Assembly (NCBI GenBank): GCA_028868875.1
Contig: JAGWTS010000008.1
Span: 1-36,604, forward strand
Direction of reading: 5' to 3'
DNA: 36,604 bases
Source of the DNA: Burkholderiales bacterium
GTDB taxonomy: Bacteria; Pseudomonadota; Gammaproteobacteria; Burkholderiales; Burkholderiaceae_C
The translations under genes were made by a program, and so were the position numbers. This document shows, piece after piece, positions 20,309 to 36,604 of the stretch. The notes beneath the pieces were generated by a model, which did no database searches, had not been told where the DNA came from, and saw only the letters and a list, made by a program, of their open reading frames with translations. Position 1 is the first letter of the stretch; each line of letters opens with the position of its first letter.

Positions 20309-22510
20309 TCACCGGCCCGGTTCGCAAGCCGGTCGCTGCGTGCCGGCTGGGGATTCGTCGATCAGCTGCAGCTCGATCCAGAAGGTGCTGCCCGAACCGG
20401 GCGTGCTGTCCACGCCGATGCGGCCTCCCATCGCCTCGATCAGGCGCTTGCTCAGCGCCAGCCCGATGCCGGTGCCTTCGACGTAGAGCCGGTCGGCGTC
20501 CAGGCGCTCGAAGGGGGCGAACAGACGCGCACGCTGCGCCGCGTCCAGGCCCGCCCCCGTGTCGCTGACCGCAACCCGCAGCCAGGCACCGGCGGCGCCG
20601 CAGCTCACTTCGACGCGGCCGTCGACCCGGTTGAACTTGATGGCGTTGGAAAGCAGATGAACCAGCACCTGCTCGAGCCGCCCGCGGTCTGCGCGCACCG
20701 ACAGCGCGCAGCCGGAGCCGGCCGCTACCAGTTCGACGCCCCGTGATGCCGCCCGCGCGCCGACCCGGCCCAGGCAGGCCTCGATCACGGGCGCCAGCGC
20801 CACCGCCTCGGTGCGGACCTCGAGCTGGCCGGTCTCGAGGCGCGAGACATCGAGCACGTTGTCGATCAGGGCCAGCAGATGGCGCCCGCTTTCGCCGATC
20901 TTGGCGGCCCAGTCGCGGACCTTCGGGCTCAGGTTCGGGTCGCGTTCGAGGAGTCCGCCGAAGCCCATGATCGCGTTCAAGGGCGTGCGCAATTCATGCG
21001 ACATGTTCGCCAGGAACACGCTCTTCTGCTGGTTGACCTCGCGCAGCTGAACGTTCTGCGCCTGCAGTTGCGCCGCCTGCGCGCGCGCCTCCTCGGCCTG
21101 CTTGAGCGGGCCGATGTCGACGATGACGACCAGCTGGTCGTCGACATCGTCGGACAGGAGCCGGGCGCTTTCGTCGATCCAGGTCAGGCTCCCGTCCTGG
21201 CGCATCACCTGGCGCTGGATCCTGGAATAGCCGCGTTCGGCCATTGCGTGCAGGCGCTCCTGGCGTGCGCGCTGGAACGATTCCTCGTCGGGATAGGCGC
21301 CGCGCACGGGCCGCCCCACCAGCGCCCCGCGCGCATAGCCGAAGATGAGTTCCGCGCCGCGGTTCGCCCAGGCCACCTTGCGCTCGCGCAGCCGGATGAT
21401 GCCGATGAGGTCGGTGTCCAGCATCGCCGCCTGCTCGCGTGCCAGTCGCTCGGCGCGTTCGTATTCGCGCTGGCGGATGGTCGTGGCGCGCAGCATGAGC
21501 CCCGACGCCGCCGCGAAGCACAGGATCAGCACCAGGCCCAGCGCCGAGTTGCGGCGCCAGCGGACAAGGTTGTCTCCGAGGTCTTCGCCGGCCTGGACGT
21601 AGAGCGGGTAGCTCGACAGGCGCCGGTAGGCCACCAGGCGCTCGATGGCGTCCGCATCGTTCGTCGCCCGGTACAGGCCGGACTCGGGGGCCGCTTGCAC
21701 CGCCTTGCGCAGCGCGCTCTCCGGTCCGAGGTAGATCGAATCGCCGCCGCCCGCCGGCTCGTCGCGATGCTGGACGAGTTGCAGGTCGGCGGTGCGCACG
21801 CTCGCCACCCCGTGCGTGCCCAGCTCGACCCGGTCGACGGCGCGCTGCAGCGTCTTGACGGGAACCAGGATCACGGCCACCCCGGCGAAGGCATGGCCGG
21901 GCCCGCGCAGCGCCAGCGCGAGCACCATCCCGTCGGTGCCGTCGACCCGGCTCGGGTACGGACCGTACAGGCCGATGGGGTCGTCGGGGTGGGCGCGCAG
22001 GCGCTCGAAGTAGTCGCGATCCGAGACGTCGACGGGCGGGCACCGGACGGCCGACCGGGTGGACGAACGGGCGGACGAACGGGCGGCCGATCCCGCGCAG
22101 ACGCGCCGCCCGTCCTCGTCGGCAATGCTGATGCGGTACGCGGCGTCGAGGAGCCCGGGGTTCGCGTCGACCGCCCGCGCCAGGGCGTCGCGGTCGACCT
22201 GTCCCTCGGCCAGCGACCGCTCCAGCGGCTTGCGCGTCGCCTCGAGCACCGCGGCAGGGCCATCGAGTGCCTCGCCGATCACCAGCGCCATCAGTTGCGC
22301 GACGTTGCGCACGTGAGCTTCATCCTCCTGGAGCCGGTGGTTCCTGGAGCTGACGACGAGGGAGACGAAGACGCTCGCCAGCACGCCGTTGAGCAGCAGC
22401 AGGCCCAGGCGCAGGCGGCGCGCCGCCCCTCCCGGGGTGGCGGTGCGAGATGCCGGATCCCCGCTCTGCGCTGCAGGCATGGGGAAGGGATCCGGCATCG
22501 CCGAAGTCAC
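20309..22510 (-). CDS. Sensor histidine kinase with dCache and PAS domains
   Basis: The 733-residue inner-membrane kinase has a TM helix at about residues 34-54, a large periplasmic dCache-type sensor domain (about 60-320, with DVSDRDYFERLR and GLYGPYPSR segments) and a second TM helix at about 326-346. It continues with a PAS domain (about 370-475), a coiled coil and a HisKA domain with H505 in NMSHELRTPLNAIMGF. The HATPase domain has LLSNAIKFN, DTGAGL and GTGIGLALSKRL. The DRDYF/GPY pattern is common in dCache domains that bind amino acids or amines, but no ligand can be named. The GTG at 22510 has AGGG upstream; ATG 22498 is an alternative start. No receiver domain is fused or adjacent on this strand. 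A 12-bp tandem repeat lies in the sensor domain. Confidence 0.91.
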   Translation of the reverse strand: MTSAMPDPFPMPAAQSGDPASRTATPGGAARRLRLGLLLLNGVLASVFVSLVVSSRNHRLQEDEAHVRNVAQLMALVIGEALDGPAAVLEATRKPLERSLAEGQVDRDALARAVDANPGLLDAAYRISIADEDGRRVCAGSAARSSARSSTRSAVRCPPVDVSDRDYFERLRAHPDDPIGLYGPYPSRVDGTDGMVLALALRGPGHAFAGVAVILVPVKTLQRAVDRVELGTHGVASVRTADLQLVQHRDEPAGGGDSIYLGPESALRKAVQAAPESGLYRATNDADAIERLVAYRRLSSYPLYVQAGEDLGDNLVRWRRNSALGLVLILCFAAASGLMLRATTIRQREYERAERLAREQAAMLDTDLIGIIRLRERKVAWANRGAELIFGYARGALVGRPVRGAYPDEESFQRARQERLHAMAERGYSRIQRQVMRQDGSLTWIDESARLLSDDVDDQLVVIVDIGPLKQAEEARAQAAQLQAQNVQLREVNQQKSVFLANMSHELRTPLNAIMGFGGLLERDPNLSPKVRDWAAKIGESGRHLLALIDNVLDVSRLETGQLEVRTEAVALAPVIEACLGRVGARAASRGVELVAAGSGCALSVRADRGRLEQVLVHLLSNAIKFNRVDGRVEVSCGAAGAWLRVAVSDTGAGLDAAQRARLFAPFERLDADRLYVEGTGIGLALSKRLIEAMGGRIGVDSTPGSGSTFWIELQLIDESPAGTQRPACEPGR
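22061..22084. repeat. 12-bp tandem repeat inside the dCache sensor domain
   Basis: GGACGAACGGGC occurs twice in tandem, with degenerate copies on both sides. On the coding strand it yields the Ser/Arg run SAARSSARSSTRSAVR. Each unit is a whole number of codons, so copy-number change would keep the frame. Confidence 0.6.
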
Positions 22511-22595
22511 GGCGAGGCCCTGAGTCGGGGGCGCCCGGCCAGACCCTCGGGGGGCCTCAGCTTCAGTTGTGAAACCATCAGTTCTGGGCTTTTAA

Positions 22596-22611
22596 CCTAA
22601 AAACAGCAGTT
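22596..22611 (+). repeat. Left terminal inverted repeat of the insertion sequence
   Basis: CCTAAAAACAGCAGTT matches the right end at 12 of 16 positions. Its last two bases are part of the transposase TAA stop codon. Confidence 0.75.
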
Positions 22612-24169
22612 ACCCGGTCGCCGCGAGCGCAGCTGGCGCTGGCGGCAGGCCAATCTGACCGACGATTCGTTGGCAGATGTAGGCCAGCAGTGCCCGCCAT
22701 CGGTCGACCTTGGGCAACTGCTCCGCAACAGCCTTGACGTGCTGGATTGCCGCATGAACATTGGCGATCATCGACTTGATCAACCCGGCTTCGGCGTGCA
22801 TCGGCGTGAGGTACAGCGTCGTCTGGTTTCCGCTGCTCGTGGCGCGGCCCACGGCGGCCAGCAGCAGCGGCCGGCTCGTCAGCGCCTCGCGCCGGGCCTG
22901 CGGATTGGCCGCTCGCACGTACCAACTCCACCAGTTGTAGACCAGCGCCACCGCGCGCGCGGTGATCTGGCTGCGGTGCATGTCTTGCGTGGTGAAGCCG
23001 CCCCAGCCCCACTGGTTCTTCAACTCGTCGAACCCGTTTTCGCAGTCGCAGCGGTCGCGGTACAGCTGGCCGACGGCGGCGATCTCGTACTCGACGTTGG
23101 TCGCCAGCACCGTGTATTCCCAGGCCTGTGCGCTGTCCTGCACTTCGTCGTGCGGCAGTGCCAAGACGAGCTGCTCATTGGCCTCTTGCTTGCCATGCCT
23201 TTTTGCCGTCAGCGCAATGTCGTTCTTGATCCGGCGGCGCAGCACGACCACGCGGCGCGCCTTGCTCCAGCCGCTCAGCCGCAGCTTGTCTTCGATGGCT
23301 TGCCAGCCCTGGCTGGCCTCGCTGGCGCGGGTCCAGTCGTCGCGTCTGAACAGCCTCTCGATCAAGCGCTTGACGTTGGCCGTCTTGCGCAGGCGCAGCA
23401 AGTAGCTCAGGGACCGCTGCTCGCATACGTCGATGATGTCTTCATTGCCGTAGCCGCAGTCGCCTCTCACGAGCGCCGGCGCTTTGTCGCCGAGTTCGTC
23501 GAGCAGCCGGGCCATCGCGGCCTTGGCGTGCCCCGAGGTGTGCTGCTTGCCCGAGCTGAGCACCGCATCGAGCACCAGGCGCAGGTTGCCCACCCAGAAG
23601 GTGTGCAGCACATGGCTGGGCCGGCCCGGCTTGTGGGGGTTGTAGCCGATCTCCGCGCCTTCCTGATGCCCGTACAGCGGCTTGATCGTGGCGTCCATGT
23701 CCAGCACCCAGGGCCGGTCCAACGCTTCGCGTACGCTGGCCATCAGGGCATCACGCATCCATGGTTCGCTCGCCGCAGGCGCCATCGCCGCCAGCGCGCG
23801 GCGCACCGAGTCTTCACTGACCATGCGCGCCAGGCCCAGTGCCCGGGCCGCGACGGCGTCGCCGCGAACTCCGGCTATGTGCGCGTAGCGCTTGCTGCCA
23901 GCCAGTATGCCCAGCATCAGCGTGCCCAGCACGTCGCGCACTCGCGATGCGTTGGGGCTGCTGTAGTGCAGGGGACAGGTCTGAACCCAGCGGTCGAACA
24001 CACCCGCCGTGGCCAGGAATTCGGCGAAGAACACGATCTGTCCGTGCGGCGTCGCTTGCGCCGTTTCGTCCCAGCGAACGTGCACCCGGCCACCCATCGT
24101 GTCGGCCACCATCGCATCCTCGCCGGCCTGCGCCAGCACGGTCTTCTTCGGTTTATCGGCTTCACCCAT
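22610..24169 (-). CDS. IS1380-family DDE transposase
   Basis: This 519-residue transposase carries the catalytic triad D159 (LDMDATIK), D237 (RGDCGYGN) and E377. The last lies in a perfect Y-x2-R-x3-E-x6-K signature (Y370, R373, E377, K384) shared by IS4-related and IS1380 enzymes. The segment ENGFDELKNQWGWGGFTTQD is typical of IS1380-type transposases. The frame is uninterrupted, so the enzyme is probably active. ATG 24169 is chosen because the open frame beyond it reaches only a TTG inside the right inverted repeat. No clear ribosome site is visible. It is transcribed away from gpsA. Confidence 0.9.
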   Translation of the reverse strand: MGEADKPKKTVLAQAGEDAMVADTMGGRVHVRWDETAQATPHGQIVFFAEFLATAGVFDRWVQTCPLHYSSPNASRVRDVLGTLMLGILAGSKRYAHIAGVRGDAVAARALGLARMVSEDSVRRALAAMAPAASEPWMRDALMASVREALDRPWVLDMDATIKPLYGHQEGAEIGYNPHKPGRPSHVLHTFWVGNLRLVLDAVLSSGKQHTSGHAKAAMARLLDELGDKAPALVRGDCGYGNEDIIDVCEQRSLSYLLRLRKTANVKRLIERLFRRDDWTRASEASQGWQAIEDKLRLSGWSKARRVVVLRRRIKNDIALTAKRHGKQEANEQLVLALPHDEVQDSAQAWEYTVLATNVEYEIAAVGQLYRDRCDCENGFDELKNQWGWGGFTTQDMHRSQITARAVALVYNWWSWYVRAANPQARREALTSRPLLLAAVGRATSSGNQTTLYLTPMHAEAGLIKSMIANVHAAIQHVKAVAEQLPKVDRWRALLAYICQRIVGQIGLPPAPAALAATG

Positions 24170-24236
24170 CGGGTGAGTGTGCCAAACAGCTTCAAGTCCG
24201 CGCCAGCGCTGAAGAAATCGGCAACTTCGCGGCTTC

Positions 24237-24252
24237 AACTGCCGGACTTAGG
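24237..24252 (-). repeat. Right terminal inverted repeat of the insertion sequence
   Basis: On the minus strand this reads CCTAAGTCCGGCAGTT. Its last plus-strand base is immediately followed by the ATG of gpsA; the plus-strand GGA at 24244-24246 may serve as a weak ribosome site for that gene. Confidence 0.75.
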
Positions 24253-25347
24253 ATGAATCCATTCCATGGCCTGGAAGCCCGATCCTTTCATTCCCGGTCG
24301 CGCCCGAGCATCGTCGTTCTCGGCGCTGGCAGTTGGGGCACTGCCTTGGCCGCGGCCTTGCGGCGGAGCGGTTGTGAGGTGTCGATGTGGACACGCCGAT
24401 TCGAGCTCTCGGAATCGATCCGGCGGCACAGGCTCAATTCGCGTCACCTCCCCGGCATCGGCCTGCCCGCCGGCCTGCGCGCAACGACCGAACTCGATGT
24501 CGCAATCGAAGGCGCGCAAGGCGTCATCGTTGCCGTGCCTTCGAGCGCGGTTCGCGAAACGGTGCGCGCCGCGGCGGCGCTGATCCGGGCGCTTCCGGTG
24601 CTGGTGGCGAGCAAGGGCGTCGAGCGCCGCAGCGGCGCGCTGATGACGCAGGTGGTGCACGCGGAATGCGGCGAGGACACGCCGGCCGGAGTGATCTCCG
24701 GGCCGAGTTTCGCCGACGAGGTGGCGCGCGGTCTGCCGACGCGATTGACCCTGGCCTACGACACGCTAGAAGGCGCGCCATCGCCGCGCGCGGGCGCCCT
24801 TGCGATCGCGCTGCGGCGTGCTTTGGGCTCGATCGGCATCGGCCTGGAGTTCGAGTCCGACGCCATCGGCGTGCAGGTGGCCGGGGCGCTCAAGAACGTC
24901 GTCGCCGTCGCCTGCGGCATGGCCCGCGCGCTGGAGCTGGGCGAGAACGCCCGCGCCGCGATCGTGAGCCGCGGCCTCGTTGACATGCGGCGCCTTACGC
25001 TGGCGCTCGGTGGCGATGCCGCCACGCTGTGGGCCAGCAGCGGCGCGGGGGATCTCTTCCTCACCGCCGGATCCACGTCTTCGCGCAATACCCGCGCCGG
25101 CATGCGGCTGGCCCGCGGCGGCGAGGCGCATGGCTGCGGCGAACTCGCCGAGGGACTCGTGAGCTGCGAAGCCTTGCGGGTGCTGGAGGGTCGCCTCGGG
25201 CTCGATCTTCAAGTCGCGCGCGCAGTGCGCGAGGTGCTGGCCGGGCAGGCCGAAGCGCGCTCTGCGGTGCTGCGGCTGATCTGCCCCGAAGGCGAGCCGG
25301 CGCCGGCGGCGAGCCACGAAGCCGCGTTGCTGCCGGCCGGCTCATGA
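24253..25347 (+). CDS. gpsA: NAD(P)-dependent glycerol-3-phosphate dehydrogenase
   Basis: The 364-residue protein has the Rossmann motif VVLGAGSWGTALA at residues 21-33, then SKGVE, ISGPSFADEVARG (about 140-152), the catalytic Lys in GALKNVVAVACG (about 211) and ASSGAGDLFLT. GpsA reduces dihydroxyacetone phosphate to sn-glycerol 3-phosphate in the cytosol. The protein is slightly longer than usual because about 18 residues precede the first strand. ATG 24253 is the only conventional start between the insertion sequence and the Rossmann motif, and it sits on the first base after the IS, so the native start and promoter may be lost. The stop overlaps the next gene as ATGA. In this operon it probably supplies glycerol 3-phosphate to GgpS rather than to lipid synthesis; that is inference from context. 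Confidence 0.92.
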   Translation: MNPFHGLEARSFHSRSRPSIVVLGAGSWGTALAAALRRSGCEVSMWTRRFELSESIRRHRLNSRHLPGIGLPAGLRATTELDVAIEGAQGVIVAVPSSAVRETVRAAAALIRALPVLVASKGVERRSGALMTQVVHAECGEDTPAGVISGPSFADEVARGLPTRLTLAYDTLEGAPSPRAGALAIALRRALGSIGIGLEFESDAIGVQVAGALKNVVAVACGMARALELGENARAAIVSRGLVDMRRLTLALGGDAATLWASSGAGDLFLTAGSTSSRNTRAGMRLARGGEAHGCGELAEGLVSCEALRVLEGRLGLDLQVARAVREVLAGQAEARSAVLRLICPEGEPAPAASHEAALLPAGS

Positions 25348-26192
25348 GCCGCGGCGCCGAAAACCGGACAGTCCGTCGCGACGCTTCGCGGCAGGGGCGG
25401 GCCGGCAAGGCCGGCGCGAGTCGCGATCCCGTCGTGCTCGCCACCGATCTCGACGGCACCTTCCTCGGCGGCAGCGAGGGGCAGCGCGAACAGCTCCATC
25501 GCTGGCTCGAAGAGCACCGCAGCGAAGTGGTGCTGGTCTTCGTGAGCGGGAGAGGACAGGACTTCATGCGCGAACTCGCGCGCACGCTGCCGGTCGCCCC
25601 GGACCATTGCATCGGCGATGTCGGCACCAGCGTGTGCCGCGGCGGCTCGTTCGAAACCTTGCCCGAACTCGAGACCTGGCTCGACGGCTGCTGGCCGCAA
25701 CATGCACCTGCCCGCATCGAAGACGCGATGCGCGCGCATCCGCGGCTGCGGCTGCAGGAGGGCTGCGGCGGACGCAGGCGCTCGTATTGCTTCGACGACG
25801 AAGCCGACGCGGTGGCTGCGGCGCGCGACGTGCAAGCCCTCGGCTTCGATACGCTGGTTTCTGACAACCTCTACTTCGACGTCCTGCCGCGCGGCGTGTG
25901 CAAGGGGCCGACCCTGCTGCGCACGCTCGAAGCGCTGGGGCTGCCGGCGCACCGCACGCTGGTAGCCGGCGACACGCTCAACGACTTGTCGATGTTCCAG
26001 ACCGGCCTGGCCGGCGTGGTGGTCGCCAATCGCGAGCCGGCGCTGGACGCCGCGCTCGGCCCCGCCGGCAACGTCTACCGCAGCCCGCTCCCGGGTGCGC
26101 AAGGCGTGCTCGATGCGCTGCGGCGCTTTCACCAACTCGGGAGAACCCATGAAGTCATCCTTGGTCATCGTCTATCACAGGCAGCCGTATGA
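25344..26192 (+). CDS. ggpP: HAD phosphatase, probable glucosylglycerol-3-phosphatase
   Basis: This is a 282-residue HAD-superfamily phosphatase of the C2-cap, sucrose-phosphatase-like kind. Motif I is ATDLDGT (nucleophile D35, acid D37), motif II is the Ser in VFVSGRG, motif III is the Lys in GVCKGPTLL (about 200) and motif IV is GDTLNDLSMF. Residues 1-27 are a basic extension. The start overlaps the gpsA stop (ATGA), and the last 44 bases overlap ggpS in another frame. In several GG-making proteobacteria a HAD phosphatase is fused to the N terminus of GgpS. By position and fold this is the stand-alone version and should dephosphorylate glucosylglycerol phosphate. The symbol is given on context; a trehalose-phosphatase role is less likely because the partner synthase is GgpS-like. 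Confidence 0.82.
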   Translation: MSRGAENRTVRRDASRQGRAGKAGASRDPVVLATDLDGTFLGGSEGQREQLHRWLEEHRSEVVLVFVSGRGQDFMRELARTLPVAPDHCIGDVGTSVCRGGSFETLPELETWLDGCWPQHAPARIEDAMRAHPRLRLQEGCGGRRRSYCFDDEADAVAAARDVQALGFDTLVSDNLYFDVLPRGVCKGPTLLRTLEALGLPAHRTLVAGDTLNDLSMFQTGLAGVVVANREPALDAALGPAGNVYRSPLPGAQGVLDALRRFHQLGRTHEVILGHRLSQAAV

Positions 26193-27630
26193 GGAACATG
26201 TCGAGAAGGGCCGCACCGTCCTGAAGGAGAACGCGAGCCCGAACGGCATCGTTCCCGCGCTCAAGGGCTTCATCGGCCAGGTCGAAAGCGCGAGCTGGAT
26301 CGCCTGGAAGCAGACCGCGTCGGACAAGCCGCGCTTCGAGCGCCGCATCACGGTCGAGGACAGCAGCGGCAAGTACGACGTGATGCGCCTGCCGCTGCGC
26401 GCGGAACAGATCCGGCAGTTCTATCACGTGGTCTCGAAGGAAGCGCTGTGGCCCGTGATCAACAGCTTCCCGTCGCTGTACTCGTCGGAGAACTCGCATT
26501 GGGAAACCTTCCGCGAAGTCAACCGGCTGTTTGCCGAGGCCGCCTGCGAAGAAGCGGCGCCCGGCGCGGTGGTCTGGATCCACGACTACAACCTGTGGCT
26601 GGTTCCGGGTTTCGTGCGCCGCATGCGCCCGGACGTGCGCATCGCGTTCTTCCACCACACGGCGTTTCCGGCGCGCGACATCTTCTGCATCCTGCCCTGG
26701 CGCGACGAGATCATCGACAGCCTGCTGTGCTGCGATCTCGTCGGCTTCCACATCCCGCGCTATGCCCACAACTTCGTCGCCCTCGCGCAGTCGCTGCGCG
26801 AAACACTGGGCGTCACGACGCGCCCGGTCGATGCCGACCTGCAGCGCATCGGCACCGCCCTGGCCGAGGCCACGACGCCGGTGGAGATCCGCCTGCCCGG
26901 GCGGCGCGTGCGCATCGACGCCTTCCCGATCGGTACCGATGCGAGCCTGATCCGCGAGCTGATGCAGCGGCCCGCCAACGACCTGCGCACGGCCGCCATC
27001 AAGCGTGAGATCGGCGAAGTCAAGGTGATCGTGTCGATCGGCCGCGTCGACTACGCCAAGGGCACGCGCGAGATGCTGCTCACCTTCGAGCGCCTGCTTC
27101 AGCGCCGGCCCGAGCTGCACGGCCGCGTCAAGCTCTTCCTCACGGCGGTGGCGGCGGCCGAGGGCATGCGCGTGTACCAGCGCGCGCGCCAGCAGATCGA
27201 ACAACTGGCCGGGCGCATCAACGGCCACTACGGCACGCTGTCGTGGCTGCCGGTGCTGCTGTCGACGACCTCGATGCCGTTCGAGGAAACGCTGTGCAGC
27301 TACCGTGCGGCCGACGTGTGCTGGGTCACGCCGCTGCGCGACGGGCTGAACCTCGTGGCCAAGGAGTTCATTGCCGCGCACGAGAACACGAGCGGCGTGC
27401 TCGTGCTGTCCGAATTCGCCGGCGCCGCGGTGGAACTGGGCGACGCCTTGCTGGTCAACCCGTACAGCATCGAGCAGATGGACAAGGCCATCGATCGCGC
27501 GCTGGACATGCCGGCCGACGAGCAGTGCGCGCGCATGCAGCGCATGCAGGCGTTGATCGAGCGCCACGACATCGTGCACTGGACCCGCCACGTGCTCGGC
27601 CTGTTCGCCGAGCTCAGGGCACAAGACTGA
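26149..27630 (+). CDS. ggpS: Glucosylglycerol-phosphate synthase (GT20)
   Basis: The 493-residue GT20 glycosyltransferase agrees with cyanobacterial GgpS from its first residues: [14 protein letters not shown], then [60 protein letters not shown] and [13 protein letters not shown]. The C-terminal nucleotide-sugar site contains [14 protein letters not shown]. OtsA (trehalose-phosphate synthase) differs in the N-terminal acceptor region. GgpS transfers glucose from ADP-glucose to glycerol 3-phosphate, the committed step to the compatible solute glucosylglycerol in salt adaptation. ATG 26149 has GGGAG five bases upstream, inside the end of the phosphatase gene, so the two are probably translationally coupled. 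No promoter is visible between gpsA and here. Confidence 0.93.
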
Positions 27631-27642
27631 GGAAGATCCCCC

Positions 27643-28755
27643 ATGCCGCCTTGGATGCACACCTGGATCGCTGGCAACGAACTGATGTCGTGGGCCCTGG
27701 CCGGCCTCTGGCTGGTGATGGTCGGCTTCGTCGTGTCGCTGCTCAAGCCGCGCCTGATCACGCGTCTGCGCGCTCTGACCCAGGCCACGGAAACGAAATG
27801 GGACGACGCCCTGGTCCAGGCGCTGGGGGCGAGCAAGACGCCGCTGATCGTGGCGATCGCGCTCTATCCGGTGGCAGCGAACCTGGTGCTGGCGCCGCGC
27901 GTCGAACGCTGGTTCGCGGCGGCCGCCACGGTCGGGCTGTTCCTGCAACTCGGCCTGTGGACGGGCAAGTTCCTCGACCACTGGATCAAGGCGTCGCGCG
28001 ACCGCGCGATGCAGGTCGACCCCGAGACCGCCACGGGTCTGGCCGTGACCAGCCTCATCGCGCGCACCGCGCTGTGGGCGGTGGTGCTGCTGGCGCTGCT
28101 CGACAACCTCGGCTTCAACGTCACGACCCTGCTCGCGGGCCTGGGCGTGGGCGGCATCGCGGTGGGCCTGGCGCTGCAGAACATCCTGCGCGACTTGTTC
28201 TCGAGCCTGTCCATCGTCTTCGACAAGCCCTTCAAGATCGGGCACTTCATCACCATCGACGATTTCGCGGGCACGGTCGAGAACATCGGCTTGAAGACGA
28301 CGCGAATCCGCAGCCTCGGCGGCGAACTGGTGGTGTTCTCCAACACCGACCTGACCAGCGCCCGCCTGCGCAATTACCGCTCGATGAAGGAGCGGCGCAT
28401 CGTGTTCACATTCGGCGTCGACTACAACACCACGCCGGAACAACTCGAAGCCCTTCCGGGCATGGTGCGCAGCATCGTCGGCGGATTGCCGCAAACCCGT
28501 TTCGACCGCACGCACTTCAAGTCGATTGCCGAATCGGCACTGCAATTCGAAGTCGTCTACTGGATGCTCACCCCGGACTACACGGCCTACATGGACACCC
28601 AGCAACGGCTCAACATCGCCTTGATGCGGGCGTGCGCGGACGCCGGCATCGGCTTCGCCTTCCCGACCCGCCATATCGAATGGCGTGCCCCGATGCCGCT
28701 GCCTCTGACCTGGGCGGGCGGGGGCCGGCGCACACCCGCAGCCGAGGCTTCGTAG
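27643..28755 (+). CDS. MscS-family mechanosensitive channel
   Basis: The 370-residue protein has about four membrane helices (near residues 16-35, 65-84, 90-110 and 138-156). They are followed by the MscS pore and beta-domain signature [32 protein letters not shown] at about 165-196, in which Gly/Ala packing forms the pore. A cytosolic beta/alpha domain and a polar, Pro-rich tail follow. Such channels open on hypo-osmotic shock and release small solutes. It begins 12 bases after ggpS with an AGGAAG ribosome site and is the last gene of the compatible-solute operon, where it would act as a safety valve or a route for glucosylglycerol release. Confidence 0.92.
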
Positions 28756-28777
28756 TGCCGAGTCGGGTCGCTTGTTG

Positions 28778-28807
28778 TTGACAAGGTCTGGGGCCGGCCG
28801 GCAGAAT
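28778..28807 (+). promoter_or_regulatory. Sigma-70 promoter of the thiamin operon
   Basis: TTGACA (28778-28783), an 18-base spacer and CAGAAT (28802-28807) form a near-consensus promoter. The predicted start, about 7 bases downstream, falls on the first base pairs of the TPP aptamer. Confidence 0.72.
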
Positions 28808-28813
28808 CGCCCT

Positions 28814-30913
<2,100 letters not shown>

Positions 30914-30918
30914 TCGCG

Positions 30919-32073
30919 ATGCCCCGCATCGTCATCGCCGGCGCCGGCGTGCTCGGCCGGCTGCTCGCCTGGCGCCTGGCGCACGCCGGCCACGAGGTGA
31001 AGGTCTTTGACCCCGCACCGGGCCCCGCGGCCCCGCCCACCGGCCGCGGGCCGGCCGAAATCGCGGCCGGCTTCACGGCCGCAGGCATGTTGAGCCCGCT
31101 GGCCGAACTCGACAACGCCGGGCCCGAACTCGCGGCGCTGGGCTGGCGCTCGCTCGTGCTCTGGCACGACGTGGCGCACCAGTTGAAGCCCGAAGGCAAC
31201 GGCTACGTGCGCCGCAACGGCAGCCTGATGGTGGCCCATGGCAGCGACCTCGGTGCGGCGCAGCGCGTGCTGGACCGGCTGCAGGCCGCACTTGCAGGCG
31301 CGCCCGAATGGCCGCGTCCGCGCGCCTTGTCGCGCGCCGAACTCCAGGCGCTCGAGCCTGCGCTGCAACCCGACCTCAAGGCCTGGCTGCTGCCCGAGGA
31401 AGGCCAGCTGCTGCCGCGTGAACTGCTGCAGGCGCTGGCCGAGCAGGCGCCGGGCGTGCAGTGGGGCTGGGGCCGCAGGGTGGCGCAGGTGCAGCCCGGG
31501 CGCATCGTGCTCGACGACGGCGCGGGGGTCGAGGCCGATCTCGCGATCGACGTGCGCGGCCTCGGCGCGCGCGCTGAAGTCGGCGGCCCGGCGTCGGCCC
31601 AAGGCGGCGCGGGCGCCGCAAGGGCGCACGATGCGGCGGGGGCGGACCGCCTGCGCGGCGTGCGCGGCGAACTCGTCTGGCTGCACGCCCCCGGCGTCGT
31701 CCTGCAGCGCCCGGTGCGGCTGCTGCATCCGCGCCATCGCGTCTACATCGTGCCGCGGCCCGGCGACCTCGTCGTCATCGGCGCGAGCGAGATCGAGAGC
31801 GAAGACCGCTCGGCCGTGAGCCTGCGCAGCGCAGTGGAGCTGATGGCCGCGGCGCACAGCGTGCTGCCCGAACTTGCCGAGGCGCGCATCGTCCACCTCG
31901 ACGCCAACCTGCGCCCGGCCTGGAACGACCATTTGCCGCGCATCGAGCGTGCGCCGGGGCTGCTGCGCATCACCGGGTTGTTCCGCCACGGCTGGCTGCT
32001 CGCGCCGGCGCTGGTGGAGGACGGGCTGGCCGCCTGCCGCGACCTCGAGCCGGCCGAGGTCGCCCATGGCTGA
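30919..32073 (+). CDS. thiO: Glycine oxidase (FAD)
   Basis: The 384-residue DAO-family flavoenzyme begins with the FAD-binding motif [24 protein letters not shown]. It contains [10 protein letters not shown] near residues 54-63 and closes with [19 protein letters not shown], which contacts the flavin and substrate. ThiO oxidises glycine to dehydroglycine, the C2-N3 source for the thiazole ring in aerobic bacteria. It begins five bases after the thiC stop and overlaps thiS by eight bases. An Ala/Gly-rich insert (about residues 218-246) interrupts the usual spacing in mid-protein and is probably a surface loop. Confidence 0.93.
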
Positions 32074-32290
32074 ATCCCGCACGGACGCCGCGCCGGTGCG
32101 CGTCAACGGGCGTGAGATGCCCTGGCGCGAAGGCCTCACCGTGGCCGAGCTCGTCGCCACGCAGACGCAAGACCCCGGCGCGCTCGCCTGCGCGCTCAAC
32201 GGCCGCTTCGTCGCCCGCGCCGAGCGCGCCGCGACGGCGGTGCAGCCCGGCGACCAGCTCACGCTGTTCGGCGCCATCGTCGGAGGATGA
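32066..32290 (+). CDS. thiS: Sulfur carrier protein ThiS
   Basis: The 74-residue ubiquitin-like protein ends in the required Gly-Gly (FGAIVGG), whose terminal carboxylate is converted to thiocarboxylate before donating sulfur to ThiG. The beta-grasp pattern ([33 protein letters not shown]) is complete. The start overlaps the thiO stop by eight bases. About eight extra residues precede the first strand. No ThiF adenylyltransferase gene lies in the window. Confidence 0.95.
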
Positions 32291-32294
32291 ATCG

Positions 32295-33104
32295 ATGAAC
32301 CCCCCTGTCCAGAGCGCCCCGTGGAAGGTGTATGGCCAGACCCTGCACAGCCGCTTCTTCATCGGCTCGGCGCGCTACCCCTCGCCCCAGGTGCTGCACG
32401 ACGCCATCGTCGCCTCGGGGGCCGAGGTGGTGACGGTGGGCCTCAAGCGCAGCCTGGCCGCGGGCGGCGACAACGGCTTTGTCTGCCAGGTGCGCGCCGC
32501 CTTGCGCGAGCGCGGCGGCCATCTGCTGCCCAACACCGCGGGCTGCCACAGCGCGCGCGAGGCGGTGACGCTGGCGCAGATGGCGCGCGAGCTCTACGAC
32601 ACGGCGTGGATCAAGCTCGAGGTGATCGGCGACGAGCACACCCTGCAGCCCGACCCCTGGGAAACCGCGGCCGCGGCCGAGACGCTGGTCAAGCTCGGCT
32701 TCTCGGTCTTTCCGTATTGCACCGACGACCTCGTGAGCTGCCGCCGCCTGCTCGATGCCGGCTGCGAGCTGCTGATGCCCTGGGGCGCGCCCATCGGTTC
32801 GGGCCAGGGACTGATCAACCCCTCGGCCCTGCGCACGCTGCGCGAACGCCTGCCCGGCGTGCCCTTGATCGTCGACGCCGGGCTCGGCGCGCCTTCGCAC
32901 GCGGCGCAGGCACTGGAACTCGGCATCGACGGCGTGCTGTTGAACTCGGCGGTCGCGCTCGCGGGCGACCCGGTGCGCATGGCCGCGGCCTTCGGCCATG
33001 CGGTGGCGGCCGGGCGCCTGGGCTATGAAGCCGGCGTGATGGCGCGCCAGGAGATGGCCGTGGCCAGCACGCCAGTCGGCGGGCGCCCCTTCCTGATCGG
33101 ATGA
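32295..33104 (+). CDS. thiG: Thiazole synthase
   Basis: This 269-residue TIM-barrel enzyme condenses deoxyxylulose 5-phosphate, dehydroglycine and ThiS-thiocarboxylate to the thiazole phosphate. The Schiff-base lysine is in [11 protein letters not shown] (about residue 107). The phosphate site is formed by [14 protein letters not shown] and the G-rich segment [10 protein letters not shown] strong GGAGG (32282-32286) overlaps the end of thiS and lies eight bases before the ATG. The stop overlaps the next start as ATGA. Confidence 0.96.
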
Positions 33105-34735
33105 AGCCGATGCGACCCCCGGTGGTGTGGAGCGTGGCCGGGCTCGACAGCGGCGGCGGCGCCGGGCTCTCGGCCGACCAGCGCGCGGCCGATGCCGCGG
33201 GCGTGCACCTGTGCCCGGTGGCGGCGGCCTTGACGGCGCAGAACAGCATCGCGGTCGAGGCCGTGATGGCGGTGCCCCCCGCGCAGCTCGAGGCCCAGCT
33301 TGCCGCGCTCGCCGACGACCTGGCGCCGGCCGCGATCAAGACCGGCCTGCTCGGCTGCGCCGCCAACGTCGTCGTGCTCGCGCGCTGGGTCGACCGGCTG
33401 CGCGAACGCGCGCCGCTGGCGTTGGTGGTCGATCCGGTGCTGCGCGCCAGCACCGGCGCGCCGCTCGCCGACGAGGCCCTGGTCGCCGCGTATCGCGAAT
33501 GGCTGCTCCCGCGCGCGAGCGCGCTCACGCCGAACCGTCGCGAAGCCGCGGCCTTGCTCGGCGTGGCCGAAGCGCGCAGCGCTGCCGAAGTGCCGGCACA
33601 GGCGCGGGGGCTGCAGGCCCTGGGGGTTGAAGCGGTGTGCATCACCGGCGGCGATGCCGACGAGACCGCGGCCCACGACTGGCTCGCCAGCCCGCAGGCC
33701 TGCGGCTGGCTGAGCCTGCCACGGCGCGCGAGCCGCCACAGCCACGGCACCGGCTGCTGCTTCGCCACCGCCTGGGCGGGTGCGATGGCGCGCGGCTTCG
33801 TCGCCGCCGATGGCGCGGTGCTGGCCAAGATGCTCACCACTTCGGCGCTCGACCACGACGGGGCGACGCCGGGTGCGGGCAGCGGTCCGGTGCGGCCCCG
33901 AGCGGATTTCATCGCCCGGCGCGAGTTGCTGCCGGCCTTCGGCGTCGGCGAGCAGGAGCCGCAGGCCCCCCAGGCCGCGATCTCGGCGCGCGCCGCAGGG
34001 CCGGGGCTGGAAGGCGTCTACGGCATCACCGACAGCGCCGCCGATGCGGCACGGTTGATGGCGGCCGGCCTGCGCGTCGTGCAACTGCGCAGCAAGCGCG
34101 GCGCGCAGGAATCCGCCGCCGCGTGGCAGGAGCGCATCAGGGCCCAGATTGCGCAGGCCCTGGCGGCGGCGCGCGAGCAGGGCGCCACGCTCGTCGTCAA
34201 CGACCATTGGCGCGAAGCGGTGGCCCTGGGCGCCGACTACGTCCACCTCGGCCAGGAAGACCTGCTGGCGCTGGCGCCCGAAGATCGCCGCCAATTTGCG
34301 CAGGCGCGCGAGCGCGGCCTGCGCCTGGGCATCAGCTCGCACAGCGTGTGGGAGCTGGCGCGCACGGTGGCCTGGCAGCCCGATTACGTCGCCTGCGGGC
34401 CGGTGTGGCCGACGCTGACCAAGGCCATGCCCTGGCGGCCGCAAGGCCTGGACAACCTCGCGTGGTGGGTGGCGATGGCGCCGGCGCCGGTGGTCGCCAT
34501 CGGCGGCGTGCTCGAACCGGAGCAACTCGAACGCCTGGCCGCCGCCGGCGCCACCGCGGGCTGCGTCGTGCGCGGCCTGCAGCCGGGCTCGGGCCACGCG
34601 CCGGGCGACTGGATCGCCGCCTGGCGGCGCGGGCTGGCGCGGCGCGCTGGTGGTAGTGGTGGTGGTGGCAGCGGGCATTGGCCGCATCCGAGCCTCGCTG
34701 TCGAGAACCCGGTCTTGCCCTGCGCAAGGCGCTGA
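33101..34735 (+). CDS. thiDE: Bifunctional HMP(-P) kinase / thiamin-phosphate synthase
   Basis: The 544-residue fusion has ThiD at about residues 6-285 and ThiE at about 300-515. ThiD shows [28 protein letters not shown], and the anion-hole HSHGTGC. It phosphorylates hydroxymethylpyrimidine twice. ThiE shows [34 protein letters not shown] and [14 protein letters not shown]. It joins the pyrimidine diphosphate to thiazole phosphate to give thiamin phosphate. The fusion keeps the final steps together in the cytosol. The C-terminal 30 residues are odd: a GGSGGGGSG linker-like run followed by a tail with no family match, perhaps from loss of the original stop codon. Confidence 0.93.
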
Positions 34736-34780
34736 GCGGGCCCCGGCTCGAGCCCGGCCGCGTCGACTTCCGGCGCCGCT

Positions 34781-35674
34781 TCAGGCCCGCAGTTCGCGGC
34801 CGAACCAGTCCAGCGTGCGCTGCCAGGCGAGCTTGGCGGCGGCCTCGTTGTAGCGCGGCGTGGTGTCGTTGTGGAAGCCGTGCACCGTGCCCGCATAGGT
34901 GTAGGCCTGGTGGCGCACGCCGGCGGCGGCCAGCGCCCGCTCGTAGGCCGGGGCGCCGGGGTTGACCCAGTCGTCGGTCTCGGCGTTGTGAATCAGCACC
35001 GCGGCCCTGATCTTCGCGGCTTCGTCGGCCGCGGGCTGGCTGCCGCCGTAGAACGGCACGGCCGCGGCAAGCCAGGGCAGGCGCACCGCGAGCAGGTTGG
35101 TGATGGCGCCGCCGTAGCAGAAGCCCACCACCCCGATTCCGGCGCCGGACTCGGGTTGCGCGCGCAGCCACTCGGCCGCGGCCACGAAGTCTTCGCGCGT
35201 CTTCTTCTGGTCGAGGCGGGCGAAAGCCTCGCGCGCCTGGTCGTCGTTGCCGGGATAGCCGCCCAAGGGGGCCAGGGCGTCGGGTGCGAAAGCGACGTAG
35301 TTCGCGAGCGCCAGGCGGCGCGCCACGTCCTCGATATACGGCGTCAGGCCCCGGTTCTCGTGCACCACGAGCACCGCGGGGCGCTTGCCCGCCGCGCCGC
35401 GGGGCTTGACGAAGTAGCCGCGGCCCCGGCCGTAGCCCGCAGGCGATTCGAACTCGGCGCGCCGGGCGCCGAGCCGGGCATCGTCGGGCGCGACCTGTTC
35501 GGCAAGGGCGTAGTCCGGGCTCAGCGCCTGGAGCAACATCGCCGCGCTCACGCCGGCGCCGGTGTAGCGCGACGCGCCGGAGAGGAATTCGCGGCGATCG
35601 ATGCGGCCATGGATGTATCGATTGAAGAGCTTCAGCACCTCGGGGTGGAAGTCGTCCGTGGTCAAGCGCGGCAT
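34781..35674 (-). CDS. Dienelactone hydrolase-family protein, probably exported
   Basis: The 297-residue alpha/beta hydrolase of the dienelactone hydrolase family has its Cys nucleophile in GFCYGG (about residue 188) and a catalytic His in VHGFHND (about 267); the Asp is probably in AETDDWVNPG. Residues 25-60 contain DRREFLSGASRYTGAGVSAAMLLQALSPDYALA, a Tat-like segment preceded by an unusual 25-residue N-terminal extension, so periplasmic export is likely. Members hydrolyse lactones or small esters; the substrate is unknown. ATG 35674 is preceded by AGGAGG-like sequence. It converges on the thiamin operon with 45 bases between. Confidence 0.9.
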   Translation of the reverse strand: MPRLTTDDFHPEVLKLFNRYIHGRIDRREFLSGASRYTGAGVSAAMLLQALSPDYALAEQVAPDDARLGARRAEFESPAGYGRGRGYFVKPRGAAGKRPAVLVVHENRGLTPYIEDVARRLALANYVAFAPDALAPLGGYPGNDDQAREAFARLDQKKTREDFVAAAEWLRAQPESGAGIGVVGFCYGGAITNLLAVRLPWLAAAVPFYGGSQPAADEAAKIRAAVLIHNAETDDWVNPGAPAYERALAAAGVRHQAYTYAGTVHGFHNDTTPRYNEAAAKLAWQRTLDWFGRELRA

Positions 35675-35854
35675 TGCGAAGTCCTCCTGCGACTTTCATC
35701 GAGTTTCGAGGATTCGTCTCGTCGCGGTCAACGGCTTTGCGCATTCTTGGCGAAGCCGAAACGCTTCGGCACATTGCGCTTTCGCCGCAGAAGCCACAGG
35801 CTGGAAGGGTGATCCGCGAGCGGATTGCAGCGTCCCCATTTCAGGGCCTAAATT

Positions 35855-35881
35855 CGGGTGCCCATTCTTCGGGCGCCCATT
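35855..35881. repeat. Two CGGGYGCCCATT repeats upstream of the CHRD gene
   Basis: CGGGTGCCCATT (35855-35866) and CGGGCGCCCATT (35870-35881) are spaced by 15 bases just before the CHRD ribosome site. They may be a regulator binding site or a small local duplication. Confidence 0.45.
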
Positions 35882-35902
35882 TGCTCGACTGGAGTTCATG
35901 TC

Positions 35903-36331
35903 ATGCGATTGCCCAATGGATTCATCTCGTCGGCGGCTCTGGCCGCGGTCTCCCTGGCCCTGTTGTCGGGTCCCGCGGCGGCAGCCGGACTCGCCTTGAG
36001 CCTGAGCGGCGACCACGAGGTACCGCCCGTGGCCACCGCGGCCAAGGGCAGCGGGACGATCACGGTCGGCGACGACGGCAGCGTCAGCGGCAGCATCCAG
36101 ACCACCGGCATTGCCGGCACGATGGCGCACATCCACATGGCTCCGAGCAAGGGCACGAACGGGCCGGTCATCATTCCGTTGACGCAATCGGCGCCCGGCG
36201 TCTGGTCGGTGCCGGCCGGCGCCAAGCTCTCGGCCGAGCAATTCGAGGCCTTCAAGGCCGGGCGGCTCTACGTCAACGTCCATTCCGCCGAACACAAGCC
36301 GGGCGAGATCAGGGCCGACCTGCAGCCCTGA
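35903..36331 (+). CDS. Secreted CHRD-domain protein
   Basis: This 142-residue protein has a signal peptide (MRLPNGFISSAALAAVSLALLSGPAAAAG, cleaved near residue 29) followed by one CHRD domain. Its signature pieces are GDHEVPPVATAAKGSGTITV, the AHIHMAP His cluster and LYVNVHSAEHKPGEIRADL. CHRD domains, named after chordin, form small immunoglobulin-like beta-sandwich proteins in the periplasm or outside the cell; their bacterial role is unknown. GGAG lies eight bases before ATG 35903. The gene is divergent from the dienelactone hydrolase-like gene with about 230 bases between them. Confidence 0.92.
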   Translation: MRLPNGFISSAALAAVSLALLSGPAAAAGLALSLSGDHEVPPVATAAKGSGTITVGDDGSVSGSIQTTGIAGTMAHIHMAPSKGTNGPVIIPLTQSAPGVWSVPAGAKLSAEQFEAFKAGRLYVNVHSAEHKPGEIRADLQP

Positions 36332-36352
36332 GCAAGCCAAACCCGCGCGCCG

Positions 36353-36604
36353 TCACATCGCGATGTAGCGCCCCGGGCGGTGGTTGACCGCGAGCGTCAG
36401 GTTCAGCACCAGGGCGCCGACGAGCGAATAGGCAACGCGCCGCGGGTCCGCCACGTAGAGCGCGGCGAGCACGATGGCGCTGTCCACCACCATCTGCACC
36501 TTGCCGGCGCGCCAGCCGCGCTCCTTTTGCAGCACGAGCGCGACGATGCCCACGCCGCCCAGGCTGGCGTGGTGGCGGAACAGCATGAGAAAGCCGGCGC
36601 CCAT
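36353..36604 (-). CDS. YitT-family membrane protein, 3' part only
   Basis: The 83 residues visible are the C-terminal half of a YitT-type (DUF161) membrane protein; the 5' part lies beyond the window. HHASLGGVGIVALVLQKERGWRAGKVQMVVD matches the conserved loop and helix of the family, followed by a membrane helix (VAYSLVGALVLNLTLAV) and a short polar tail NHRPGRY. The ATG at the window edge is probably an internal Met. Function of the family is not established. Confidence 0.75.
   Translation of the reverse strand: MGAGFLMLFRHHASLGGVGIVALVLQKERGWRAGKVQMVVDSAIVLAALYVADPRRVAYSLVGALVLNLTLAVNHRPGRYIAM

Follow-up and report, generated by a model that had tools for sequence, protein, structure and literature searches.

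Gene content and junctions of the locus

We analysed a 36,604 nt stretch of DNA (hereafter, the window) on contig JAGWTS010000008.1 of a Burkholderiales bacterium (GCA_028868875.1). Between positions 24253 and 28755 the window encodes a glycerol-3-phosphate dehydrogenase (GpsA), a HAD phosphatase, a glucosylglycerol-phosphate synthase (GgpS) and a mechanosensitive channel of the MscS type (Table 1). All four reading frames are open. The gpsA and HAD genes meet at an ATGA with a 4-base overlap, the HAD and ggpS genes overlap by 44 bases in differing reading frames, and the mscS start follows the ggpS stop after a 12-base gap. Open reading frame coordinates and family scans agree with a preliminary description of this DNA, which had named the same four genes and the same three junctions. 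Glucosylglycerol is a compatible solute that protects against salt, and it is also a commercial protectant. We conclude that the region is a conserved module predicted to serve glucosylglycerol metabolism, and that the four genes probably form one operon by which this solute would be made and released.

Table 1. Features of the four-gene locus and of the insertion sequence on its left.
Feature	Position	Strand	Basis
gpsA paralogue, NAD(P)H-dependent glycerol-3-phosphate dehydrogenase, 364 aa	24253..25347	+	family models, second genomic copy, tree
HAD-IIB phosphatase, S6PP type, 282 aa, proposed glucosylglycerol-phosphate phosphatase	25344..26192	+	family models, motifs
ggpS, glucosylglycerol-phosphate synthase, 493 aa, GT20	26149..27630	+	curated model, tree, residues
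mscS-type mechanosensitive channel, 370 aa	27643..28755	+	Pfam domains, tree, neighbourhoods
Insertion sequence, imperfect terminal inverted repeats	22596..24252	-	ends fixed by other copies in the same genome
Transposase gene within the insertion sequence	22610-24238	-

Identification of GgpS

The window GgpS passed the curated NCBIfam equivalog model for glucosylglycerol-phosphate synthase (TIGR02398; 645.8 bits, cut-off 569) and fell below the cut-off of the OtsA model (TIGR02400; 420 bits, cut-off 564.85). It grouped with 75 other GgpS in an 82-row tree, which split these from six OtsA, including that of Escherichia coli, with a Shimodaira-Hasegawa-like approximate likelihood ratio (SH-aLRT) of 100. 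Before tree building, duplicates were removed and the cyanobacterial rows were reduced from 43 to 11. The OtsA side consists of six long branches, and no Synechocystis PCC 6803 sequence is included. All trees in this study were built by a quick method and carry SH-aLRT support only. The window sequence falls in a 26-row clade (SH-aLRT 97) of stand-alone proteobacterial GgpS, outside the clade that holds the fused phosphatase-synthase proteins (GgpPS), and a 62-row clade (SH-aLRT 100) unites it with cyanobacterial GgpS. The curated model and the tree, a comparison that the preliminary description had itself proposed, support its call of GgpS.

The residues agree with this placement. At the column of E. 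coli OtsA Arg301, which we take to bind the acceptor phosphate, all six OtsA have Arg; in the 76 GgpS rows its place is taken by Ala (69), Asn (4), Asp (2) or Thr (1). The columns of OtsA Arg263, Lys268, Asp362 and Glu370, presumably involved in sugar-nucleotide binding, are unchanged in all 76. Given the model score, the separate tree side and the replaced Arg301-column residue, we rejected an OtsA identity. The closest solved structures by sequence are trehalose-phosphate synthases, and none of the 25 matches listed is named GgpS.

Distribution of the module and the split two-gene form

In genomes sampled at two taxonomic levels, TIGR02398 exceeded its cut-off in 13 of 399 from the order and 18 of 399 from the family. 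We fetched 110 ggpS loci, consisting of order, family and genus matches, 80 named loci (the best 80 of 585 relatives) and two plasmids, with the window excluded. Distinct GgpS were encoded at 107 of these, and the counts below refer to loci fetched, not to natural frequency. The 107 loci comprise 33 with gpsA-HAD-ggpS, 26 with HAD-ggpS but without that gpsA (some on short contigs), 12 with a fused HAD-GgpS and 36 with ggpS without the HAD gene, which are cyanobacterial by record title. Two of the 26 are probably fused: L020 and L058, counted as split, have frames of 766 and 761 aa that suggest fusion, so the fused form accounts for 12 to 14 of the 107.

The gpsA-HAD-ggpS core spans beta-, gamma- and alphaproteobacterial records. 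It occurs in Thiomonas, Thiobacillus, a Hydrogenophilales bacterium, Variovorax and Acidiferrobacteraceae, and in alphaproteobacterial records of Dinoroseobacter, Falsirhodobacter, Palleronia, Oceanibaculum, Tistrella, Roseomonas, Pseudoroseomonas and Hyphomonadaceae. We therefore rejected the idea that this genome alone has the arrangement. By record names, bacteria predicted to make glucosylglycerol now also include sulfur- and metal-oxidisers from mine-type waters as well as freshwater betaproteobacteria.

The HAD protein matched Pfam S6PP at 125.7 bits (cut-off 20.3) and has intact motifs (DLDGT at residue 35, VFVSGRG at 65, CKGPTL at 186 and GDTLND at 209). Of the 13 NCBIfam families matching it at E 0.001, the general HAD-SF-IIB model alone was over cut-off and none was named glucosylglycerol-phosphate phosphatase, although whether the library includes such a model was not checked. 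The protein shares about 34-43% identity with the N-terminal portion of fused GgpPS. A fused GgpPS has phosphatase and synthase in one frame, and the window has two genes in different frames. In all 35 relative rows with gpsA upstream (33 distinct), HAD and ggpS are likewise separate genes. Their overlap measures exactly 44 bases in 12 of the 35 and 19 bases in 10; gpsA and HAD overlap by exactly 4 bases in 25. The recurrence of the split and of the exact overlaps indicates that the two genes do not represent a fused gene broken by a frameshift or by misassembly, and we rejected a frameshifted fusion on this ground.

Seven cyanobacterial loci (L111, L112, L127, L129, L130, L136 and L137) have an S6PP-type HAD gene directly upstream of ggpS, whose product is 41-46% identical to the window HAD. 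The fused ggpPS of genome G323 (locus L005) contains one in-frame TGA inside the match.

A dedicated GpsA lineage

The operon GpsA passed two NCBIfam subfamily models (NF000942, 285.5 bits, cut-off 257; NF000940, 264.6 bits, cut-off 202) and retains the conserved residues except for one Thr to Ala change. A second, housekeeping gpsA, 42% identical to the operon copy, was found on contig C266 of the same genome, so we rejected the idea of a single gpsA co-opted from its housekeeping role. The preliminary description had proposed a dedicated gpsA and suggested looking for this second copy. Copy counts in 30 genomes bear it out: with the operon GpsA as query (E 1e-20), two copies were found in all nine genomes with the operon gpsA and one in all 21 others (15 with ggpS and six without). 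In a tree, 34 operon GpsA lie on one side of a branch (SH-aLRT 97) and 23 housekeeping (including E. coli) and nine cyanobacterial sequences on the other; for the remaining eight operon genomes, this tree includes no housekeeping gpsA. The separate clade and the second copies indicate that the operon GpsA has long been a distinct lineage accompanying the operon.

Just four columns discriminate operon from housekeeping GpsA at a level of at least 80%. Gly is present in 34 of 34 operon rows at a position occupied by Ala in 21 of 23 housekeeping rows, and Ser occurs in 31 of 34 operon rows in the loop preceding an invariant Ser-Arg-Asn. The window GpsA deviates at two discriminating columns, with Val at the position of E. 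coli Leu92 and a housekeeping-like Ala at Gly268.

At nine cyanobacterial loci (L092, L101, L112, L113, L120, L125, L126, L131 and L133), ggpS is followed 3.3-4.7 kb downstream by a gpsA belonging to a clade of its own. The cyanobacterial pairing of gpsA with ggpS is apparently independent of the proteobacterial one.

The MscS channel and its association with ggpS

The MscS protein was over cut-off for three Pfam domains (PF21088, PF00924 and PF21082), and it did not reach the cut-offs of the named NCBIfam MscS equivalog and subfamily models. We searched for channels and symporters from 4.5 kb upstream to 5 kb downstream of ggpS. MscS-type genes occur in this span at 17 of 33 gpsA-HAD-ggpS, 10 of 26 HAD-ggpS and 6 of 12 fused loci, and sodium:solute symporters at 8 of 33, 2 of 26 and 0 of 12, respectively; neither was found at the 36 cyanobacterial loci without the HAD gene. 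A channel of the window type is present at 13 of the 33 gpsA-HAD-ggpS loci.

In the MscS tree, 28 window-type rows from split and fused loci form one clade (99), apart from two paralogues of the window's own genome and E. coli MscS. One own-genome paralogue, L148, falls inside the clade, but it is a 40-residue fragment and its position is uninformative. Among the 399 family genomes, an MscS match at E 1e-100 or better was found in 11, all of which belong to the 18 with ggpS, and in 10 of the 11 it lies beside ggpS. At the genus level, all five genera with such matches are among the 11 of 141 genera with ggpS, which has a probability of about 1e-6 if genera are independent and the line is preset (it was drawn after seeing the scores). 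The whole genome has four MscS-domain genes, and so by our own estimate the probability that one lies near ggpS by chance would be of the order of one per cent. Distances in the GgpS tree correlate with those of HAD (Spearman 0.94), GpsA (0.82) and MscS (0.95), with non-independent pairs and no species-tree control. The clade, the matches in family genomes and the neighbourhoods together argue that the association of MscS with ggpS, as the preliminary description had supposed, is non-random.

Some Thiomonas-type loci have a second, different MscS gene between ggpS and the window-type channel, and other relatives have a sodium:solute symporter followed by that second MscS type next to ggpS. The regions L065:8495-10753 and L068:8531-11212 are examples of these arrangements.

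Comparison with known systems

The literature consulted describes two kinds of glucosylglycerol synthesis: cyanobacteria use separate genes, and heterotrophs use a fused GgpPS (PMC10873239, PMC6753628, PMC8168540, PMC9361551, PMC7824335, PMC7404187, PMC12157923, PMC5924519). The fused form is attributed to Stenotrophomonas rhizophila, Pseudomonas mendocina, Azotobacter and Marinobacter in PMC10873239. It has the same two activities as the window module, with the phosphatase part before the synthase, and the window HAD and GgpS are about 34-43% and 41-49% identical to the fused loci fetched, respectively. The window differs in having two overlapping genes, gpsA in front and a GgpS of another clade. 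Cyanobacterial ggpS with a separate ggpP (PMC10873239 and PMC6753628) resembles the window in its stand-alone GgpS of the same 62-row clade and, in some cases, a co-located gpsA, which a figure legend in the review PMC6753628 lists among the genes found with cyanobacterial ggpS. It differs in that 36 of the 43 loci fetched have no adjoining HAD gene of the window type, no channel was found beside ggpS, and the downstream GpsA, seen in nine loci, is of another clade. The trehalose pathway (OtsA/OtsB) shares the logic of a GT20 synthase and a HAD phosphatase; the window has a GgpS-clade synthase, another acceptor-site residue and an S6PP-type phosphatase.

Further close precedents are plasmids of Dinoroseobacter shibae and Falsirhodobacter algicola, on which gpsA-HAD-ggpS occurs in the same order, with the ATGA gpsA/HAD junction and with the genes so named (RefSeq annotation via PLSDB). 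They lack an MscS or symporter of the kinds sought within reach, and their GgpS are 53% and 49% identical to that of the window. The preliminary description had considered a betaproteobacterial arrangement of this kind unfamiliar. This has to be narrowed, given the 33 other distinct loci with the core, the plasmid annotations and the printed co-location in cyanobacteria, but the module as such was not found described: we found no account of a gpsA-HAD-ggpS-mscS operon in the open-licence PMC full text as far as it was seen, a result that does not extend to print as a whole. The window module is a third architecture, next to fused GgpPS and the cyanobacterial form. It represents a variant, so far little described, of a known pathway and not a new pathway. 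This architecture is marked by a dedicated GpsA lineage and often by an MscS subfamily or a sodium:solute symporter alongside.

Proposed pathway

We infer that the four genes are co-transcribed and respond to salt. GpsA would convert dihydroxyacetone phosphate to glycerol 3-phosphate, GgpS would glucosylate it with a sugar nucleotide, most likely ADP-glucose, as the donor, and the HAD enzyme would remove the phosphate from the resulting glucosylglycerol phosphate. The MscS channel would open upon a drop in osmolarity, with glucosylglycerol among the solutes escaping. The preliminary description had called this route self-contained, which is too strong, because the sugar-nucleotide supply lies outside the operon: two glgC genes over cut-off are on other contigs of the genome.

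The dedicated GpsA and the linked channel are the boldest part of the finding. In one scenario, which we consider rather unlikely as a whole, an operon GpsA free of feedback by glycerol 3-phosphate would feed GgpS, a co-travelling MscS subfamily would be tuned to vent glucosylglycerol, and the solute would be cycled, with the symporter that replaces or joins the channel elsewhere serving re-uptake. A feedback-free GpsA is proposed because of the Gly in 34 of 34 and the Ser in 31 of 34 operon rows, and a feedback-resistant E. coli gpsA allele is on record (PMC12157923). According to PMC8168540, precursor supply is a bottleneck in glucosylglycerol engineering, and an added glycerol-3-phosphate dehydrogenase improved the salt tolerance of a strain equipped for glucosylglycerol synthesis. 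A widespread third form with its own dehydrogenase matters for this reason. Moreover, if solute synthesis is tied to a particular mechanosensitive channel, preferred channel cargo could be tested for.

Alternative explanations

Several observations, given here with the alternatives on which they bear, weigh against reading the locus as a working make-and-release operon. The first concern expression. The last base of the insertion sequence (24252), an element that the preliminary description had not noted, directly precedes the gpsA ATG (24253-24255), which makes expression in this genome uncertain, and no sigma-70-like site was detected on the plus strand between 23900 and 24253. In the seven relatives inspected, a purine-rich GGAG-type stretch, mostly GGAGAT, precedes the gpsA start, and in the window the end of the insertion sequence lies there instead. 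The single promoter-like match on the plus strand in 23900-28960 (28778-28807) is downstream of the operon. The insertion sequence has probably removed the native leader, and expression of the operon in this genome may be weak or absent. The gpsA start codon itself is probably native, as the length of the GpsA N-terminus agrees with relatives. It is nearly an even prospect that the coding parts are intact but cut off from their leader, leaving the operon silent or driven from the element. Against this explanation, the four open frames speak for no decay since the insertion, consensus scans overlook many promoters, and the join at the insertion sequence may itself be an artefact.

This last point leads to a second explanation, a false join or a recombinant between insertion sequence copies, in which 1-22595 and 24253-36604 were originally separate. 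The insertion sequence occurs at 14 further places in the genome with at least 98% identity, most at contig ends, and thus it probably broke the assembly. Its copies have target duplications five bases long, within which a T and an A are constant. Matching flanks were found in four cases (left/right: L153/L154, L151/L185, L189/L186, and L184 or L215/L152), but the window copy is flanked by TTTAA (left) and ATGAA (right), so a false join or recombination is possible. ATGAA is also the left flank of the copy on contig C30 of the same draft. On the other hand, pairing is incomplete elsewhere too (right flanks L187 and L188 and left flanks L190 and L191 are partnerless), and agreement over five bases, of which a T and an A are conserved, may be coincidental. 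The C30 flank, inspected as a possible native gpsA leader because of this match, has no GGAG-type stretch, and no promoter-like site was found in its 400 bases. We regard a false join or recombinant as a substantial possibility, and the operon, which lies wholly to the right of the insertion sequence, is independent of it.

The channel may be a mere neighbour, a generic emergency channel without a special link to glucosylglycerol. No channel is within reach at 16 of the 33 distinct gpsA-HAD-ggpS loci (some contigs end early), nor in the span searched at any of the 36 cyanobacterial loci, and many split loci carry a symporter in its place or lack both. The 1e-100 threshold was chosen post hoc, and at the looser E 1e-50 an MscS match was found in 14 of the 18 ggpS genomes and 53 of the 381 ggpS-negative genomes, so no tie to glucosylglycerol holds for the MscS family at large. 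Genome G754 has ggpS and a window-type MscS on different contigs, and MscS channels are known as unselective (PMC6753628). Conversely, channels of the same clade adjoin ggpS in both split and fused forms and on either side of it, and some Thiomonas-type loci have two consecutive channel genes. We lean against the neighbour-only explanation while considering it a fair contender.

Contamination of the draft genome, estimated at 6.06%, is improbable as the source of the contig. In its favour, TIGR02398 was over cut-off in 1 of 81 genus genomes, the window's own, and thiC was found in 3 of 41. Against a contaminant, the contig's insertion sequence is found on many contigs of the same draft, the left flank of this element is 86% identical to contig C150 of the draft up to the element's edge, and the thi genes on the right share 70-78% DNA identity with a genus mate, in the same order where matched.

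Finally, that GgpS is a GT20 enzyme with another acceptor or product, such as a trehalose-like sugar phosphate, is very improbable: several activities are known in GT20, the nearest solved relatives make trehalose phosphate and the product here is predicted, but the curated model, the tree, the loss of the acceptor-side Arg in all 76 GgpS rows and the dedicated glycerol-3-phosphate dehydrogenase in the operon all argue for GgpS.

Neighbouring features

To the left of the insertion sequence, 21617-22596 holds the start of a sensor histidine kinase gene, whose 86% identical partner is at the end of contig C150, with the likeness stopping at the insertion sequence edge. To the right of the operon, a thiamine pyrophosphate (TPP) riboswitch (28809-28924; 58.2 bits, gathering score 54.3) precedes a thi gene cluster from thiC onward, and the site at 28778-28807 just before it is strongly sigma-70-like. 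For thiC (29018-30913), matches at E 1e-100 or better were found in 3 of the 41 genus genomes searched, the window's genome included, indicating that thiamine synthesis is patchy in the genus.

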